Of a stretch of 39,706 nucleotides of DNA, positions 8,531 through 15,237 are shown one piece after another. Source of the DNA: Desulfobulbus sp. GTDB taxonomy: Bacteria > Desulfobacterota > Desulfobulbia > Desulfobulbales > Desulfobulbaceae. Within the stretch, counting starts at the first letter, position 1. Every line of letters begins with the position of its first letter. The notes under the pieces were generated by a model, which saw nothing but the letters and a program-made list of their open reading frames with translations, was not told the origin of the DNA and made no database searches. The stretch is taken from NCBI GenBank assembly GCA_011051875.1, contig DRKI01000167.1:1-39706 (forward strand), read 5' to 3'. The translations under genes and the position numbers were made by a program.

Positions 8531-9534
8531 GGGGTTCCGGCAAGGCGCGCCCGGTGCCAGGCCACGGTGTCGCGGATGGATTCCTCGAGCGGCCGCGGCC
8601 GGTGACCCAGGGCCCGCCAGGTCCAGGAGCCGTCAAAGGCCATGGAACGGCGGCAGAGCCGGACCCCGGTCACCGAGCTTCTCGGTCGGCCGCCGGTGAT
8701 GCGGCAGACCGTCTCCTCCAGGTAGGCCCAGGCCAGGGCCACGAGCCAGGGGACCTTCAGGCCGGGACAGGGCCGGCCGCTCTCCCGGCTCAGGTACTGG
8801 AAAAACTCGATAATCTTCAGGTTGTAACCCGAGAGGATGTAGCGCCGTCCGGGCCGGCCGCGTTCCGCGGCCCGCAGGTGCCAGATGGCCATGTCGCGCA
8901 CATCGGCGAAGTTGAGCATGCAGTCCAGGTAGCCCGGTATCCTGCCCTGCAGAAAATCCGATACCATGCGGCCGGGCGGGGTCAGGTTCCGGTCGCCGGG
9001 ACCGATGGGCAGGGTGGGGCAGACGACCACCGCATCAAGCCCCTCGTCCGCGGCCCGGAACACGGCCTGCTCGGCCAGGAACTTGGAGCGGCAGTAGGGC
9101 CCGAGCATATCCTCGAGCCTGGGCCGGGCATCCTCGGTCACGGGCAGGTTGCCCCGGGTGGGCGCCAGGATGGACTCGGTGCTGGTAAAGACCAGCCGCA
9201 GCTCGCCCGCCTCCCGGATCGCGGCCAGGACATTGCGGGTCCCCTGGTGATTGAGCCGTTCAAAGACCGAGGGATCGCGGTCCCAGAGCATGGGGGTGCC
9301 GGCCAGGTGAAAGACGGTCCGGCAGCCCTGCATGGCGCGGACGAGTCCGTCCCGGTCCATGATGTCACCCTGCACCATCTCCCGGGGCTGCAGCTCCAGC
9401 TCCCCCGGATAGACCGCCCGGTCAAAGACCCTGACCTCTTTTCCCTGCCGAAGCAGTTCCTGCACCAGGTGGCTGCCGATGAACCCGCTGCCGCCGATGA
9501 CCAGGCATGGTGGCGATGAAGATTGCGCTGTCAT
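8527..9534 (-). CDS. hpnA: HpnA, hopanoid-associated sugar epimerase (extended SDR)
   Basis: 335 residues. The Rossmann nucleotide-binding motif GGSGFIG is at 14-20, the catalytic Tyr-Lys pair is Y147-K151 (YCRSK) and serines/threonines of the active site are in FTSTES around 117-121. This is the NAD(P)-dependent epimerase/dehydratase family that accompanies hopanoid genes (HpnA); a related 3-beta-hydroxysteroid-dehydrogenase-like enzyme cannot be excluded from sequence. It converges on the sulfotransferase gene and the coding regions overlap by 4 bp. No strong ribosome binding site precedes the ATG. Confidence 0.88.
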   Translation of the reverse strand: MTAQSSSPPCLVIGGSGFIGSHLVQELLRQGKEVRVFDRAVYPGELELQPREMVQGDIMDRDGLVRAMQGCRTVFHLAGTPMLWDRDPSVFERLNHQGTRNVLAAIREAGELRLVFTSTESILAPTRGNLPVTEDARPRLEDMLGPYCRSKFLAEQAVFRAADEGLDAVVVCPTLPIGPGDRNLTPPGRMVSDFLQGRIPGYLDCMLNFADVRDMAIWHLRAAERGRPGRRYILSGYNLKIIEFFQYLSRESGRPCPGLKVPWLVALAWAYLEETVCRITGGRPRSSVTGVRLCRRSMAFDGSWTWRALGHRPRPLEESIRDTVAWHRARLAGTP

Positions 9535-9671
9535 ACCAGAAAAGAGAAAAAAGTGCGGCCGGCAGGTCGCACCCCTTCTGCCGCCCCTTGTTTTTCATCC
9601 CGGCTTCAGCCGGTATTCCCACAGGTGATCCTGATCCAGCCTGCAGCGGCCAACTCCTGGCGGATGCGGCC
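9535..9671. other. Non-coding stretch upstream of hpnA
   Basis: No supported gene. It contains a small perfect palindrome around 9600-9614 (CCGGCT-TC-AGCCGG) resembling a REP-type hairpin. Any hpnA promoter must lie here or inside the adjoining repeat, but I see no convincing -35/-10 pair. Confidence 0.4.
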
Positions 9672-9826
9672 AAGCGGTTGCAGAGCACCCCATCCGCACG
9701 CGCCCGCACCACCCGGTATACGGGGTGTATGCTTGTGAAGCTCGATCACCCGCAGCTGTGGTACCGTGCAACCCTTTACAAGTCCTCTATTAATTCAGGG
9801 TAATTGGATATCCCGTGATCGGTTAC
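9672..9826 (+). repeat. Dispersed intergenic repeat, full copy (E4)
   Basis: About 155 bp and the best reference copy. It runs from GCGGTTGCAGAGCACCCC at the left to CCCGTGATCGGTTAC at the right and aligns along its whole length with the minus strand of 2435-2592. The right third also aligns with 2261-2311 and 21793-21865, and the left end with 20513-20549. No open reading frame is shared between copies, which argues for a non-coding element. Confidence 0.85.
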
Positions 9827-10141
9827 CCATGCGGCACCAAGGTACTACGTTTCCCGCCAGAGTCAAGAAAAGACACTGCTCCGGACCATCCCTTTTCGGC
9901 CGCGGTTGTGGTGAACCAGGTCCGACACCACCGGGTGACCTCGCCTCCTCCCACAGGGGCCGCGCCGATCTTTCCGGAAAATCCGGCAGGATCCGGGCTT
10001 TCATTTCTGCGGATGTTACCGTTTTGTTACCACGCAGTGGGTACGCTGAATACAAATCACCGCAGACGGCATCCCTCCGGGCGGGCTCTCCTGTGTCGCC
10101 TGATCCGCCCGGTGCCCTGGATCGACAGCGAGGTATACCCG
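9827..10141. other. Non-coding leader region of the propeller cluster
   Basis: I find no supported gene here. A TTGTTA at 10024-10029 followed by the AT-rich GAATACAAAT at 10048-10057 might be a weak promoter for the cluster starting at 10142, but the spacing and -10 fit poorly. Confidence 0.35.
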
Positions 10142-10372
10142 ATGATCAGACTCCCGGCGGGCCGGAAAAACGGCCCCATGGACAAGGCAGCGGAACGGTT
10201 GCGCCAATTTGAAGAGGCCCGGCTGCCGCCGGAGGAGGAGAACGGGCCGCCGGTGGACGAGACAGACGCCGGCAGGAAAAGGCCCGGCAAAAAGCCGCGA
10301 AAAGACAGGCCGGAGCCGCCACCGGACCCGGCCGGTCGTGGAGAGGATGAACCTGCCAGCCGGAAAGACTGA
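10142..10372 (+). CDS. Small charged, Pro-rich hypothetical protein
   Basis: 76 residues from an ATG preceded by GAGGT about 8 bases upstream; another in-frame ATG lies at 10178. Residues 13-30 could form a short helix (MDKAAERLRQFEEA), and the rest is rich in E, K, R, P and D and looks disordered. No family is recognised and there is no signal peptide or membrane segment. It ends 23 bp before the propeller gene and is probably its operon leader gene. Low complexity in GC-rich DNA makes chance coding possible, but the position and codon bias favour a real gene. Confidence 0.5.
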   Translation: MIRLPAGRKNGPMDKAAERLRQFEEARLPPEEENGPPVDETDAGRKRPGKKPRKDRPEPPPDPAGRGEDEPASRKD

Positions 10373-10382
10373 GTCACACCAC

Positions 10383-10390
10383 AGGAGGTG
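10383..10390 (+). promoter_or_regulatory. Strong ribosome binding site of the propeller gene
   Basis: AGGAGGTG five bases before the ATG at 10396 is a near-perfect anti-SD match. It fixes the start of the 839-residue protein and suggests high translation. Confidence 0.8.
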
Positions 10391-10395
10391 ATCGT

Positions 10396-12915
10396 ATGAG
10401 ACTGCCCAGAGAAGTCCGGAACGTGATTGACGAGACCATGCGAGGCAAACCGATCTACCGCGAGCCGGGTGGCAAGGTGCTCCGGAGGCTGCAGCTCTTT
10501 GAAGAACAGCGGGGCATCGAGATGGCATCCTTTGCCCGGGAGATCGAGCCGGGGGAGACCGGCGCGGTACAGAAGGAAAAAGGGGGAAAACTGACAGGGG
10601 AGGAGGTCGCCAGGCTCTACATCGCTGGCGCCAGGGCCCTGGAGGAGGGAGCCGTTGCAGAGGCCGGGAAGGAAGAGCAGGCAGCGCCGCCACCGGCTCC
10701 GGCCAGGCCCGTTGCCCCGCCCCCCAGGTGGCGGCCCCTGGGACCGATCCGGATCCCCGGGGGACAGACCTACGGCTCCAGTCGCATCGATGTCTCGGGT
10801 CGCGTCGCCGCCATTGCCATCGACCCGACCGATCCGGCTCATATCCTCTGCGGAGCAGCGGCCGGCGGCATCTGGGAGACCAGGAACAGCGGCCGCAGCT
10901 GGTCCCCCCGCACCGATCACATGCCCTCCCTGGCGACCGGCGCCATCGCCTTTGATCCCATCTCCCCCAATATCGTCTACGCCGGCACCGGCGAGGGCAA
11001 CTTCTATGCCCGGCTCGGCGCCGGTCTCCTGCGCTCGACCAACGGCGGCACCGGCTGGTCGCTGCTCACCGACACCCCCTTTGTCGGCCAGGGCTTCTAT
11101 GATCTGAGCATCGACCGGAACAACACGGCCAACCTGCTTGCCGCCACCACCGGCGGTCTCTACAAGTCCACGGACAGCGGGCACAACTGGACGCGCCGCC
11201 GCTCGCGGAAGACCTGGAAGATTTCCAGGGCCGGCGCCGGCTCATCCGAGATCCTGGCCGCATGTTCCGACGGCCTCAAGGTCTCGACCAACAACGGCCA
11301 GACCTGGGCCGGCGTGACCCTGCCCGGAGCGCCCGCGTCCTGGAGCCGGCTGGCAGTGGATCATGCGGCCGTAAGGCCGGAGATCGCCTATGCCTTCGGC
11401 GCCTCTGGCGACACGGTCTACCTGTACCGGCGCAATGCCCGCGGCACCTGGCACCGTATCGCCACGCCCTCGGATCTCGGCCCCGGCCAGGCCTGGTACG
11501 ACTGGTTCCTCGCCGCCGCCCCGGACCGCGAAGATCAGGTCTACCTGGGCGCCATCCATGCCCACCGGGGCGACCTGTCAGGATCGACATGGACCTGGAT
11601 CAACATCTCGTCAAAGCGCTCCGGCGATTCCATTCACCCGGACCAGCATGCCATCGCCTTTCATCCGACCAACCCGGCCGTGGTCTTCATCGGCAACGAC
11701 GGCGGCCTGTACCGGTCACGTGACCGCGGCATCTCCTGGCAATCCCTCAACACCAACCTCACCATCACCGAGATAGAGTACATTGCCCAGGATCCCGGAT
11801 CGTACCGGTGGCTCATGGGCGGCACCCAGGACAACGGCACCATCCGCTTCCGCGGCAGCCCGGTCTGGGACCATATCGCCGATGGAGACGGCGGCGACTG
11901 CGCCGTCAACTCCGTCAACCCGGACTCGGTCTTCCATTCCTACTACGGCATGGGCCTGCAGCGCTCGGACAACAGGGGCGACTCCTGGGGCGGATTCATC
12001 CAGAACGGCCGCAACCGGCCAGGCTACCGGGCCCTGTTCTACCCGCCCATGGAGGGACGGGGCAACACCATCGCCCAGGCAGGCCAGAGCGTGTTCATCT
12101 CCCGGGACAACGGCGACTCCTGGACCGAGATCGCCCTGGCCGGCAATCCCGTTGCCAGCGCCATGCACATGCCCACGCCGGACCTGGTCTTCGTCGGCAC
12201 CACCGACGGCCGCATCTTCCGCATCCGCTGGACCGGCTCGTCCTGGAGCGCGGCCACGGAACTGACCAGGCCGAGGAATAGCTGGATCAGCGACCTGCAT
12301 GCCCATCCGCGCAACACCAACCGGCTGTGGGCGACCAGTTCCAGCCTGGGGAACGGAAGGGTCTTCCGCTCCGATGACGGGGGCGCTACCTGGACGGACC
12401 GCACGGCCGGCCTGCCAGGGCTGCCCATCAATGCCGTCGAGGTGGATCCGGGCAATGCCGACCGGGTCTGGGTGGCGGCGGACGTGGGGGTCTACCAGTC
12501 CTTCAACGGCGGCGCCAGCTGGCGACCTTTCGCCAACGGCCTGCCCAACGTCCTGGTGGCGGACCTGCTCTACCACCCCCAGGCAAGGGTACTCAGGGCA
12601 GGCACCCGGAACCGCGGCGTCTGGGAGATCGACGTCAACGGCACCCTGGCCAGGCCCATCTGCGGCCGGCAATGGACCGGCAGCCTCGGGCCGCGCCAGT
12701 CGCGGCGCTGGTTCACCTTCAACTGGCCGGCGACCTGGTCCATGGCCTGGACCGTAATGCCGACCAGCGTCCGCAGGGGGGCCCCGCAACTGAGCTGGGA
12801 TGTCGCCATCGAACGGGCGGATGCCGAGCATGTGACCTACTGGATCACGGTCAAGAACCTGACAGACACCACTGTCCGGTTCGAAGGCCGCTATTGCATC
12901 CTCAGTTTCCGTTAG
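10396..12915 (+). CDS. Large Asp-box (BNR/sortilin-like) beta-propeller protein with C-terminal accessory domain
   Basis: 839 residues. Residues 1-90 are charged and helical, 91-110 a Pro/Ala linker, ~112-750 a multi-blade propeller and 756-839 a separate domain. At least nine Asp-box-like motifs are visible, for example RNSGRSW (~163), STNGGTGW (~214), STDSGHNW (~258), STNNGQTW (~297), SRDNGDSW, SDDGGATW and SFNGGASW. Such propellers occur in sialidases, sortilins and xyloglucanases; I see no complete sialidase arginine triad, so a binding or scaffolding role is as likely as hydrolysis. No signal peptide or membrane segment is visible, odd for a fold that is mostly extracellular. The C-terminal domain is duplicated as a separate gene at 13036. 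Confidence 0.85.
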   Translation: MRLPREVRNVIDETMRGKPIYREPGGKVLRRLQLFEEQRGIEMASFAREIEPGETGAVQKEKGGKLTGEEVARLYIAGARALEEGAVAEAGKEEQAAPPPAPARPVAPPPRWRPLGPIRIPGGQTYGSSRIDVSGRVAAIAIDPTDPAHILCGAAAGGIWETRNSGRSWSPRTDHMPSLATGAIAFDPISPNIVYAGTGEGNFYARLGAGLLRSTNGGTGWSLLTDTPFVGQGFYDLSIDRNNTANLLAATTGGLYKSTDSGHNWTRRRSRKTWKISRAGAGSSEILAACSDGLKVSTNNGQTWAGVTLPGAPASWSRLAVDHAAVRPEIAYAFGASGDTVYLYRRNARGTWHRIATPSDLGPGQAWYDWFLAAAPDREDQVYLGAIHAHRGDLSGSTWTWINISSKRSGDSIHPDQHAIAFHPTNPAVVFIGNDGGLYRSRDRGISWQSLNTNLTITEIEYIAQDPGSYRWLMGGTQDNGTIRFRGSPVWDHIADGDGGDCAVNSVNPDSVFHSYYGMGLQRSDNRGDSWGGFIQNGRNRPGYRALFYPPMEGRGNTIAQAGQSVFISRDNGDSWTEIALAGNPVASAMHMPTPDLVFVGTTDGRIFRIRWTGSSWSAATELTRPRNSWISDLHAHPRNTNRLWATSSSLGNGRVFRSDDGGATWTDRTAGLPGLPINAVEVDPGNADRVWVAADVGVYQSFNGGASWRPFANGLPNVLVADLLYHPQARVLRAGTRNRGVWEIDVNGTLARPICGRQWTGSLGPRQSRRWFTFNWPATWSMAWTVMPTSVRRGAPQLSWDVAIERADAEHVTYWITVKNLTDTTVRFEGRYCILSFR

Positions 12916-13035
12916 GCCGGCAGCCGCTGCCGGCTGAACCGACAATAAGCGCCGGAGCAGGACCGGGAAACCACGGACAGGTATCCGGAAGGACCCGGGA
13001 TTGCCCGCCCTCCGGCCACAACCAGGGAGATCCCC

Positions 13036-13293
13036 ATGAGAACCGGAGTACAATGGACAGGAACCATCGGCCCCAGACAGACCCGTCGCTGGTTCACCTA
13101 CAACTGGTATTCAGGATGGCATGTACACTGGTCCATGATGCCGACCTCGCCGCGCCGGGGCGCGCCACAGCTCGACTGGGACGTTGCCGTGGAACGGGCC
13201 GGGTCGGATCGCTGCACCTACTGGATCACCGTGAAGAACCTGACCGACAGGCAAGTGACCTTCGAAGGCCGTTACACGATCATGAACAGCTAG
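13036..13293 (+). CDS. Stand-alone copy of the propeller's C-terminal domain
   Basis: 85 residues, start fixed by AGGGAG seven bases before the ATG. It is clearly homologous to residues 756-839 of the propeller protein: shared blocks are QWTG, GPRQ-RRWFT, MPTS, RRGAPQL, WDVA-ERA, TYWITVKNLTD and FEGRY. Tryptophan- and aromatic-rich with alternating polar and hydrophobic residues, it looks like a small beta-sandwich, perhaps a carbohydrate- or protein-binding module; I do not recognise a named family. There is no signal peptide. It sits 120 bp after the propeller gene in the same direction. Confidence 0.85.
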   Translation: MRTGVQWTGTIGPRQTRRWFTYNWYSGWHVHWSMMPTSPRRGAPQLDWDVAVERAGSDRCTYWITVKNLTDRQVTFEGRYTIMNS

Positions 13294-13301
13294 GAGAGAC
13301 C

Positions 13302-13649
13302 ATGAGAATCATCATCGAGATCGACGCGGAAGAAAACCGGGGCGCCAGGACCACCGGGCCCCTGGCAACCGTGACAACCGGCGGCCGGAACGAGGCGATG
13401 CGACCGGTGGCGGTGCCGGAGAGCGAGACAGGGGGCGGAGAGATCGAGACGCTGAGCGCCGGTCCGGCGCCGTCGCTGCCGGGACAGGAAGAGGAGGTGA
13501 CGCCGCAGGAGGGGATGGCCGCCGAGACGGCAGCCGCCACGGGGCCGGCACCGGAACCGGGCCTGCCGCCCCGGGAGGAAGCCGCCCTCCGGGCCGACGA
13601 GACCGCGGGCGGCCTGTCGGCAGGTGCCGCTCCCGAAATCGTGGAGTAG
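13302..13649 (+). CDS. Glu/Ala/Pro-rich low-complexity hypothetical protein
   Basis: 115 residues, starting 8 bp after the previous stop with GGAGAG in the gap, so translational coupling is likely. Residues 1-10 (MRIIIEIDAE) resemble a beta strand; the rest is acidic and Ala/Gly/Pro-rich and is predicted to be disordered. No homologous family recognised. Like the 76-residue protein at 10142 it is charged and unstructured, so the cluster is flanked by two such proteins. Confidence 0.6.
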   Translation: MRIIIEIDAEENRGARTTGPLATVTTGGRNEAMRPVAVPESETGGGEIETLSAGPAPSLPGQEEEVTPQEGMAAETAAATGPAPEPGLPPREEAALRADETAGGLSAGAAPEIVE

Positions 13650-13688
13650 AGTGACGGCGGCCATGCACCCCACTGGAAAGAAGAGACG

Positions 13689-14387
13689 TTGATCGTCCTG
13701 GCGCTCATCGTGGCGACCCTCTCCTTCACCCTGTCGGCCTCGGCGGGCCTGGGCGGGTCGCTCATCCTGGTGCCGGCCATGTCGATCCTCCTCGGCTCCA
13801 GGGAAGGCATCGCCATCGCCGCACTCCTGCTGGGCATCAACAATATCTTCAAGGTCTGGGCCTACCGGCAGACCATCCCCCTGAAGGCGGCCCTGGGGAT
13901 ACTGGTCCTGACCATGGCCGGCGCCGCCCTGGGCGCCGGCCTGATGGTGACCGTTCCCGAACGCTGGGTGGACGTGGCCATCATTGTCAGCTTTACCCTC
14001 AGCTTCCTGGTCGAATCCCGCCGGTGGTTTGCGGTGCGACGGATCATGGCCCTGTTCTTTGCCTTTTTCGCCGGCGCCTTTTCCGGGTTCTCGGGCACAT
14101 CAGGTCCCCTGAAAGGTGTGGCCCTGCGCAGCCTGGACCTGGAACGAATGTACTTTGTCGGCGCCGCCTCCATAGTCTCCCTGGCCGGGGATGCGGTCAA
14201 AGCCTCGATCTTTATCCACTCCTCCCTGGTCAACGCCACCACGCTCACCATCCTGGTCTCCGCGGTTGCGGTCATGCCGCTTGCCGTCTCCCTGGGCCGC
14301 CTGATCAACGAAGAGATCGGGGAACGCTCCTACGCCGCCCTCTTCTGGACCGTGATGGCCGGCTATACGGCAAGGCTCATCTTTTGA
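13689..14387 (+). CDS. TSUP (TauE/SafE) family membrane permease
   Basis: 232 residues with about seven hydrophobic helices. The N-terminal SASAGLGGSLILVPAM and the mid-protein FAGAFSGFSGTSGPL loop are the duplicated glycine-rich signatures of the TauE/SafE sulfite/sulfonate exporter family; the substrate cannot be read from sequence. The start appears to be TTG at 13689 behind a purine-rich GGAAAGAAGAGA; an ATG further upstream runs into a stop. It lies 39 bp after the preceding gene and may belong to the same transcript. It converges on the Sel1 gene with a 10-bp gap. Confidence 0.85.
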   Translation: MIVLALIVATLSFTLSASAGLGGSLILVPAMSILLGSREGIAIAALLLGINNIFKVWAYRQTIPLKAALGILVLTMAGAALGAGLMVTVPERWVDVAIIVSFTLSFLVESRRWFAVRRIMALFFAFFAGAFSGFSGTSGPLKGVALRSLDLERMYFVGAASIVSLAGDAVKASIFIHSSLVNATTLTILVSAVAVMPLAVSLGRLINEEIGERSYAALFWTVMAGYTARLIF

Positions 14388-14397
14388 CCGCTTTTCG

Positions 14398-15237
14398 TCA
14401 GGGCGCCGTTATATCCTGGCCGCCGCCTGCCCCCTTCTCCTGCTCCGCACGCTTTTCCCGGTTCCGTTCCACCTCCTGGTAGAGCCGGACCGACAGGGCC
14501 TGGGCCCGGGTGAGATCCTGCCAGCTCATGGCAGGCATGAGGCCGTTGCGGGCGATGGAGGCCGTGGTGTTGCCCTGGCTGGCGGCCAGGCTGTACCAGG
14601 CATAGGCCCGGACCGTATCCACCGGCGCGCCGATGCCGTTGGCATACATGAGCCCCACGTTGTACTGGGCCTGTATATCGCCTTGCAGGGCCGCCTCGCG
14701 GTAGAGGGCAAGGGCCTGCTTGAAATCCTTTTTCCCGGTCAGGCCGTTGTAATAGATAAAAGCGAGATCGTTCATGGCCGCGACACCGCCATTTTTCACG
14801 GCCAGCTCGAGCCATTTCTTCGCCTCCATGTAGTTCTGGGGCACACCGGTGCCGCGCAGATACATGGCGCCGATGATGGTCAGGGACTCGGCCGTGAAGC
14901 GGCCGTTCTGCGCAGCGCGGAGGAACCACTTGAAGGCCTCGCGCCGGTTCTTGTCCGTCCCCAGGCCGCGGTAGTACATTCCGGCAACGATGAACTGGGC
15001 CTCGGCATCACCCAGTTCCGCTGCTCTCAGATAGAGTTTCAATGCCCTGGCACGGGAGCGCGGCACTCCGAACCCGGTGTAGTAACGGTAGGCCTGGACC
15101 ATGAGGCGCTGCAGGTCGCGGGTCCGGGCAGCAGGCTGCGCCGGAACGGCTGCAGCCGCCACGAGCCAGGCGAGCAGGAACATGGTCAACCCGGTCATGA
15201 TCGGCCGGGTACGAAAAAAAAGAAAAACCTGTTGCAT
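14398..15237 (-). CDS. Sel1-repeat (TPR-like) exported protein
   Basis: 279 residues with a signal peptide (hydrophobic residues ~15-31, then AVPAQP). About five Sel1 repeats follow, each with the A-x6-G-x-G-V/T-x-K/R-x8-W/Y-x2-A-A pattern: for example LGDAEAQFIVAGMYYRGLG and QGDIQAQYNVGLMYANGIG. Sel1 proteins are periplasmic or surface scaffolds for protein interactions. The tail after ~245 is charged and coiled-coil-like. No clear ribosome binding site precedes the ATG; a second in-frame ATG lies 13 codons in and would give a shorter signal peptide. Function is not predictable from context. Confidence 0.88.
   Translation of the reverse strand: MQQVFLFFRTRPIMTGLTMFLLAWLVAAAAVPAQPAARTRDLQRLMVQAYRYYTGFGVPRSRARALKLYLRAAELGDAEAQFIVAGMYYRGLGTDKNRREAFKWFLRAAQNGRFTAESLTIIGAMYLRGTGVPQNYMEAKKWLELAVKNGGVAAMNDLAFIYYNGLTGKKDFKQALALYREAALQGDIQAQYNVGLMYANGIGAPVDTVRAYAWYSLAASQGNTTASIARNGLMPAMSWQDLTRAQALSVRLYQEVERNREKRAEQEKGAGGGQDITAP

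Follow-up and report, generated by a model that had tools for sequence, protein, structure and literature searches.

Closest described systems

In cohesin-dockerin and linear-motif scaffolds a partner protein with short elements in several copies gathers a number of interchangeable enzymes. In this work we describe a gene cassette found in a 39,706-nucleotide contig of Desulfobulbus sp. (DRKI01000167.1 of assembly GCA_011051875.1; this whole stretch is called the window), which differs from these scaffolds in having no sequence relation to them, one enzyme per genome and a docking that is only predicted. The cassette is defined as a head protein with a C-terminal jelly-roll domain (the fused copy, F), a free copy of the same domain (the orphan, O) and a gene for an acidic protein with an MRIxIEID start and DAG-type motifs. 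Five plus-strand genes fill positions 10142-14387 of the window, at the coordinates originally predicted, and genes 2-4 are a head with F, a free O and an acidic gene in a row, which fits this definition.

The nearest idea in the papers covered is the two-gene conflict system EACC1 (PMC7159879), in which, as in the cassette, one component is constant and the effector next to it varies. EACC1 pairs a membrane domain with one transmembrane segment with caspase-like effectors, and no parts are common to the two systems. The payloads of extracellular contractile injection systems (eCIS; for example PMC11495950) are likewise without classical leaders and need a loading signal. The payloads of Photorhabdus virulence cassettes (PVC) have N-terminal signals, whereas the constant element of our cassette is C-terminal. 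There is a moderate co-occurrence of eCIS and cassette at the level of the genome, but the tube genes are neither adjacent nor obligatory.

The GOLD, PPC and Tk-SP C-terminal jelly-roll domains are beta-sandwiches with a topology similar to that predicted for the cassette domain. PPC and Tk-SP domains are, like F, C-terminal, and they are found on secreted peptidases. Unlike the cassette domain, the known members of these three groups sit on leader-bearing secreted proteins, without a free twin and an acidic partner. AlphaFold2 with an alignment of 108 rows gives the orphan of the window as six strands with a mean predicted local distance difference test (pLDDT) of 94.8 and a predicted template modelling score (pTM) of 0.82, and the domain is confidently predicted to be a jelly roll. 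A fold search gave Z 7.8 for the GOLD domain of TMED1, 7.3-7.4 for Tk-SP and 6.5 for the collagen-binding domain of ColG, with PPC and further sandwiches also among the matches; the best of these is at the level usual among small sandwiches, and the arrangement is a common one for jelly rolls. Fold kinship to GOLD, Tk-SP or PPC is not claimed, as the Foldseek E values were all above 0.05 and the VIA Z values below 8. By sequence the domain has no solved homologue, the orphan has no Pfam match, and neither PPC nor GOLD is among the families tallied for 108 domain copies.

The heads belong to the Gln_deamidase_2, Peptidase_S8, Peptidase_M64 and Asp-box/Sortilin-VPS10 propeller families, but differ from the described members in being leaderless and tied to an unnamed domain and its partners. 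Eight cassette proteins had no PADLOC match to a known anti-phage defence system. A phage or viral origin was rejected, as there was no match in IMG/VR or INPHARED; a Haloferax copy of the domain has one weak PHROG match (E 0.0013). The open-access literature gave no description of the cassette, of its domain or of the acidic protein, subscription journals and preprints being outside the scope. Within the libraries, structure sets and open-access papers covered, the cassette looks like an undescribed molecular system.

Fused and free copies of the domain

The original prediction held that the 85-residue protein of the window is homologous to the tail of the propeller in front of it and arose as a copy of it. 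The homology stands, with 54 of 81 residues (67%) identical to residues 757-837 of the propeller (E 1e-37), and the window genome has exactly two copies of the domain, the propeller tail and the orphan. That the orphan is a copy of this propeller's own domain does not stand. In a tree of 138 domain copies (82 columns; the inner forks are poorly resolved) 136 copies had a nearest row of their own kind (fused with fused, free with free), and the partner in the own locus was the nearest relative in only three rows. The labels fused and free change seven times on the tree, compared to 46 times in shuffles. The tree places the fused and free copies as two old sister subfamilies, which points to an ancient duplication inherited jointly, and for this reason the orphan is no recent copy of the domain of its neighbour.

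Two columns of the domain are invariant and sixteen others are conserved to at least 90%, many of them W, E, R, Y or T. The conserved positions are identical in F and O copies (the invariant W, E, R, N and Y residues are kept), which is what a ligand common to both would predict. When the fused copies are labelled by head type the tree has 7 changes (minimum 5), and when they are labelled by phylum it has 26 (minimum 10). Because the fused copies track head type far better than phylum, the cassettes are taken to have spread horizontally by type, and the cassette is a horizontally spread accessory gene set.

Distribution of the cassette

A profile scan was made over 84,980 named species genomes. 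Exact short peptide patterns were required, and the number of loci is therefore a lower bound. The scan gave 75 loci, with the window 76, in 12 phyla including archaea. The bacterial phyla with loci are Bacteroidota, Actinomycetota, Pseudomonadota, Chloroflexota, Acidobacteriota, Verrucomicrobiota, Planctomycetota, Thermodesulfobacteriota, Deinococcota and Thermomicrobiota, and the archaeal loci are from Methanobacteriota (Haloferax, Methanosarcina). Bacillota gave one partial match only (locus L088). The cassette is rare; among 299 genomes sampled in the Kibdelosporangium order, with the centre genome counted in, 4 have it.

The original prediction took a conserved co-occurrence of propeller and orphan as a sign of a system. 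The profile search and the comparison of neighbourhoods support this: the arrangement recurs across phyla, the neighbours come with it, and fused and orphan copies make up a conserved system. Homologues of the orphan are not scattered either: 40 host genomes (up to 13.6 Mb) had an adjacent fused and free pair (36 genomes) or a fused copy alone (4 genomes), and zero domain copies away from the cassette. A free copy of 83-85 residues follows the head in 65 of the 76 loci. The median gap is 19 nt between the head stop and O, where the window has 120 nt, and 13 nt between O and the acidic gene. Beyond the cassette no neighbour gene recurs widely, as judged by a crude calling of open reading frames (ORFs). 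In a Verrucomicrobia cassette a third domain copy lies downstream (L085:5285-5605), and in Larkinella punicea the orphan gene is split by a stop codon (L019:7947-8252), by decay or sequencing error.

Head proteins

The heads cluster into about 27 Asp-box propellers, 21 subtilases, 17 distinct protein glutaminases and two M64 peptidases. Two further small groups without a Pfam model, four heads with HELVES and three with EQGHRW, bring the number of head types to at least six. The extracellular members of the Asp-box propellers usually have a secretion leader, although it is not required for the fold. The propeller of the window has no detectable one, in line with the original prediction, and a hydropathy heuristic (not SignalP) found no signal-peptide-like hydrophobic stretch within the first 70 residues of this propeller or of 76 homologous heads; the maximum in the window propeller is -0.12 over 15 residues. 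An unusual export route, also part of the original prediction, may fit the absent leaders.

All 17 glutaminases keep the catalytic Cys and His motifs intact, and 13 of them have the Asp motif by pattern; among 20 subtilases 19 have an intact Ser motif. Subtilase and glutaminase cassettes have an extra N-terminal partner domain, fused or as a gene of its own, without a Pfam match. A partner of this kind would be in keeping with enzymes that are held inactive in the cytosol, and it may act as propeptide or inhibitor. In glutaminase cassettes it is a conserved domain of about 160 aa (L010:7286-7780, minus strand; heads of L022, L027, L042 and L045), a separate gene in some bacteria and enzyme-fused in Actinomycetota and archaea. 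In eight subtilase cassettes (L040, L041, L046, L051, L068, L074, L076 and L080) a separate gene of about 90-110 aa stands before the head; its product ends in AAYxKP, has no Pfam name and is possibly a separately encoded propeptide or inhibitor.

The acidic protein

Of 73 assessable loci, an automatic search for an acidic gene that has a strand-like start and one or more AG motifs picked out 69, and three more were spotted by eye (L019, L026, L021), giving 72 of 73 with only L078 lacking it. It is kept even in loci without an orphan. The acidic protein is a core partner, the only other constant component beside the domain. Its motif can be written [DSN][AG]Gx[APS][PS], and at least two motifs are present in the acidic proteins of 41 of 60 loci. 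In subtilase cassettes there are 2-4 motifs with O (14 loci) and 1-2 motifs without O (5 loci). The acidic proteins of Haloferax (L070, L072, L136) measure about 200 aa; they carry four motifs, and an additional helical stretch (MDYEAIVSGTVEEVKDRV...) lies at their C-terminus. In Haloferax mediterranei the acidic gene begins 13 nt past the orphan; it is absent from the gene table examined, which is known to be incomplete, and the orphan is annotated there as 'hypothetical'.

A proposed docking model

The model which we prefer proposes that the acidic protein, docked at its motifs by F and O, bridges the head and O and holds the head assembled or restrained; we give it an even chance. It starts from a head without detectable signal peptide which bears F at its C-terminus and is followed by the free O and the acidic motif protein. 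F and O would be docking modules for one ligand, and the likeliest candidate for this ligand is the motif set of the acidic protein. By binding both, the acidic protein would join head and O in a single complex, and the complex would keep the head assembled or restrained until delivery or activation. With less confidence we suggest that the head would then act on other cells, at their proteins or surfaces, or would act once the producer has lysed; an action outside the producer is proposed because such enzymes are usually secreted and yet are leaderless here. In propeller-type cassettes the gene upstream of the head would be the free counterpart of an N-terminal motif of the head in the same way as O is of the C-terminal domain, and a membrane gene would serve to anchor the assembly or to release it.

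The proposed docking draws on conservation and on one artificial read-through model. In a stretch of the Caballeronia calidae cassette (L040) F, O and acidic gene share one frame, and an artificial chain of F, O and acidic protein, with the stops read as glycine, was used as a docking probe for AlphaFold2. Both domains had pLDDT above 90, and the acidic protein was mostly below 50. Two of its three motifs were predicted as short strands, at residues 213-215 (then a helix at 221-228) and 272-277, in blocks with pLDDT of about 60-71. The chain suggests, without proof, that motifs dock onto the domains. Also in favour of the model are the strict linkage in 40 host genomes, the exchange of heads beside constant partners in 12 phyla, the joint absence of all five genes in G001, the lack of a leader in 76 heads and the acidic protein as the one further constant component, whose motif occurs 110 times in 60 proteins as compared to 2.6 times in shuffles of the same proteins. 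The motif numbers of subtilase cassettes with and without O are a further hint.

Several observations weigh against this model. The two strands in the L040 chain could pair with one another, and conserved columns by themselves can lift the pLDDT. The conserved MRIIIEID start has no predicted pairing with the domains in this chain. The ratio of motifs in the proteins to those in the shuffles is descriptive, since the motif was derived from the proteins counted and was used to choose the reading frame. Finally, about 9 loci without O still have head and acidic gene, which means that O is dispensable in some.

A wider reading, to which we lend somewhat less than even odds, is that bacteria and archaea share through horizontal transfer an undescribed, modular platform for effectors, in which interchangeable leaderless enzymes bear a C-terminal docking domain and are assembled, restrained and dispatched by the free twin and the acidic protein. 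If this is true, the dispatch would take a route without a classical signal peptide. A gene set which crosses the divide between bacteria and archaea and swaps its enzymatic head while keeping the small partners points to a general molecular device, with parts that the libraries covered do not name. The docking, if true, would be a compact domain-motif pair of about 85 residues versus about 6 and would offer a handle on making and using proteases and deamidases without a secretion leader. The cassette also gives leads to the function of many 'hypothetical' genes.

Alternative models

The original prediction proposed that the orphan might compete with, cap or multimerise the propeller. Such actions of O are possible, but a formulation tied to the propeller covers too little, because the propeller is one of at least six head types. 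In its general form this model takes O as a competitive decoy or cap which occupies the acidic motifs or pairs with F and limits the activity of the head until it is removed. O and F have nearly all invariant residues in common and would bind the same ligand, and there is a single O per head, directly downstream. The loci which lack O but keep head and acidic gene do not fit, and the presence of two or more motifs in 41 of 60 loci suits bridging better than competition. We regard a decoy or cap as unlikely.

A second model takes the head as leaderless cargo of an eCIS or a similar one-step exporter, with O and the acidic protein as loading chaperone or signal. It would account for heads without leaders, and T4_gp19 tube genes were found in 24 of 42 cassette genomes (G000, G002 and G525-G564) and in 91 of 436 comparison genomes, from the class of Kibdelosporangium and the orders of Larkinella and Duganella (Fisher p 1e-6). 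Genome size confounds this comparison; a rough weighted regression, with sizes available for only part of the tube-negative genomes, lowers it to an odds ratio of about 2.6. The tube genes are far from the cassette, and only in L048 do both lie on the same short contig, 26 kb apart with genes between them. Neither the genome of the window (80% complete) nor its congener G002 (97% complete) has a tube gene. An obligatory role as eCIS cargo was rejected, as 18 of the 42 cassette genomes are without a tube gene. The link is a lead and not a mechanism, and a cargo role is possible, with a probability that we set rather low.

In a third model the acidic protein is the substrate, a precursor which the head, guided by F and O, cleaves or deamidates at the DAG sites, in a manner resembling the maturation of ribosomally synthesized and post-translationally modified peptides (RiPPs). 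A small acidic gene adjoins protein-modifying enzymes, its repeated short motifs could serve as processing sites, and the glutaminases checked (17/17) keep the catalytic Cys and His. The motifs, however, have no Gln for a glutaminase and do not vary with the head, be it a protease, a deamidase or a propeller without a recognised protease domain, and there is no recurring transporter or other maturation gene. We find this model improbable.

An ordinary local duplication of a C-terminal domain, functionally unlinked, would explain the tandem layout and the 67% identity in the window, but is highly improbable in view of the same layout in 65 loci of many phyla, the rarity of own-locus partners as nearest relatives (3/138) and the lack of copies elsewhere in the 40 genomes, and a recent one is rejected by the tree of fused and free copies.

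The window locus and its relatives

The features of the window are collected in Table 1. The identities given originally to the propeller and the TSUP permease agree with profile matches: the propeller matches Sortilin-Vps10 (83.7 bits, cut-off 33), BNR (31.4 bits, cut-off 27) and PSII_BNR, and the fifth gene is above the cut-off of TauE (61.4 bits versus 32.6). The 76-, 85- and 115-residue proteins have zero Pfam or NCBIfam family matches.

Table 1. Features of the cassette locus in the window (positions of the whole stretch)
Feature	Positions	Strand	Basis
76-aa charged protein, upstream partner in propeller-type cassettes	10142..10372	+	ORF; pattern-matched equivalents in 12 propeller loci
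Motif MDKAAERLRQFEEARLPP of the 76-aa upstream protein	10178..10231	+	upstream-gene matrix also picks the propeller N-terminal motif
839-aa leaderless Asp-box (Sortilin/VPS10-like) propeller, the head	10396..12915	+	Pfam Sortilin-Vps10 E 1.6e-23, BNR above cut-off
N-terminal propeller motif GGKVLRRLQLFEEQRGIE	10468..10521	+	0/200 shuffles reach its score against the upstream-gene matrix
Fused copy (F) of the predicted jelly-roll domain, propeller residues 756-837	12661..12906	+	profile match, 136.8 bits
Orphan copy (O), 85 aa, predicted six-stranded jelly-roll domain	13036..13293	+	AlphaFold2; kept in 65/76 loci
115-aa acidic protein, multiple DAG-type motifs	13302..13649	+	equivalents in 72/73 assessable loci
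MRIIIEID, conserved N-terminus of the acidic protein	13302..13325	+	comparison across loci
SAGPAP motif in the acidic protein	13455..13472	+	motif count across 60 acidic proteins
SAGAAP motif in the acidic protein	13617..13634	+	motif count across 60 acidic proteins
232-aa TSUP-family membrane protein, TTG start, membrane part of this propeller-type cassette	13689..14387	+	TauE E 1.4e-16

Two features had escaped the original prediction: the MRIIIEID start of the acidic protein with its two SAGxAP motifs, and the motif K-x3-RL-x2-FEE-xR, which is common to the 76-residue protein and the N-terminus of the propeller. A short charged gene with AAERLRxFxxAR lies upstream of propeller heads in 12 loci found by a simple pattern. 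A matrix built solely on these upstream genes recognises GGKxxxRLxxFxxxRG in 24 of 25 propeller heads, close to their start, and 0-4 of 200 shuffles reach the same score. Judged by these sequence matches the propeller of the window has a free counterpart for each end, the upstream gene for the N-terminal motif and O for the C-terminal domain. A membrane ORF is frequent downstream of propeller heads; it is a TSUP gene in the window, L014 and L035, and in about 15 other loci hydrophobic ORFs of roughly 70-95 residues, recognised by hydropathy only, stand at the same position.

All five genes are present in unchanged order in the congener G002, where the orphan is 91% identical, and the congener G001 has none of the five. 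Among nine relatives checked, the two cassette genomes were the only ones with the TSUP gene. The epimerase and Sel1-repeat genes that flank the block remain neighbours on one contig of G001, at about 82-84% DNA identity. They are 1.7 kb apart (L146:4189-5888, corresponding to 9523-14450 of the window), and the spacer encodes none of the five genes. As all five are missing together at the same site, they behave as a unit in the genus of the window. The spacer of G001 holds a gene which looks by eye like an outer-membrane phospholipase, and the site looks variable. Desulfogranum marinum (G015), which belongs to the same family, has the domain on a protein glutaminase (Gln_deamidase_2, E 3.6e-32) as a fused copy, and this head is followed by an orphan and then by an acidic protein starting with MRITIEID.
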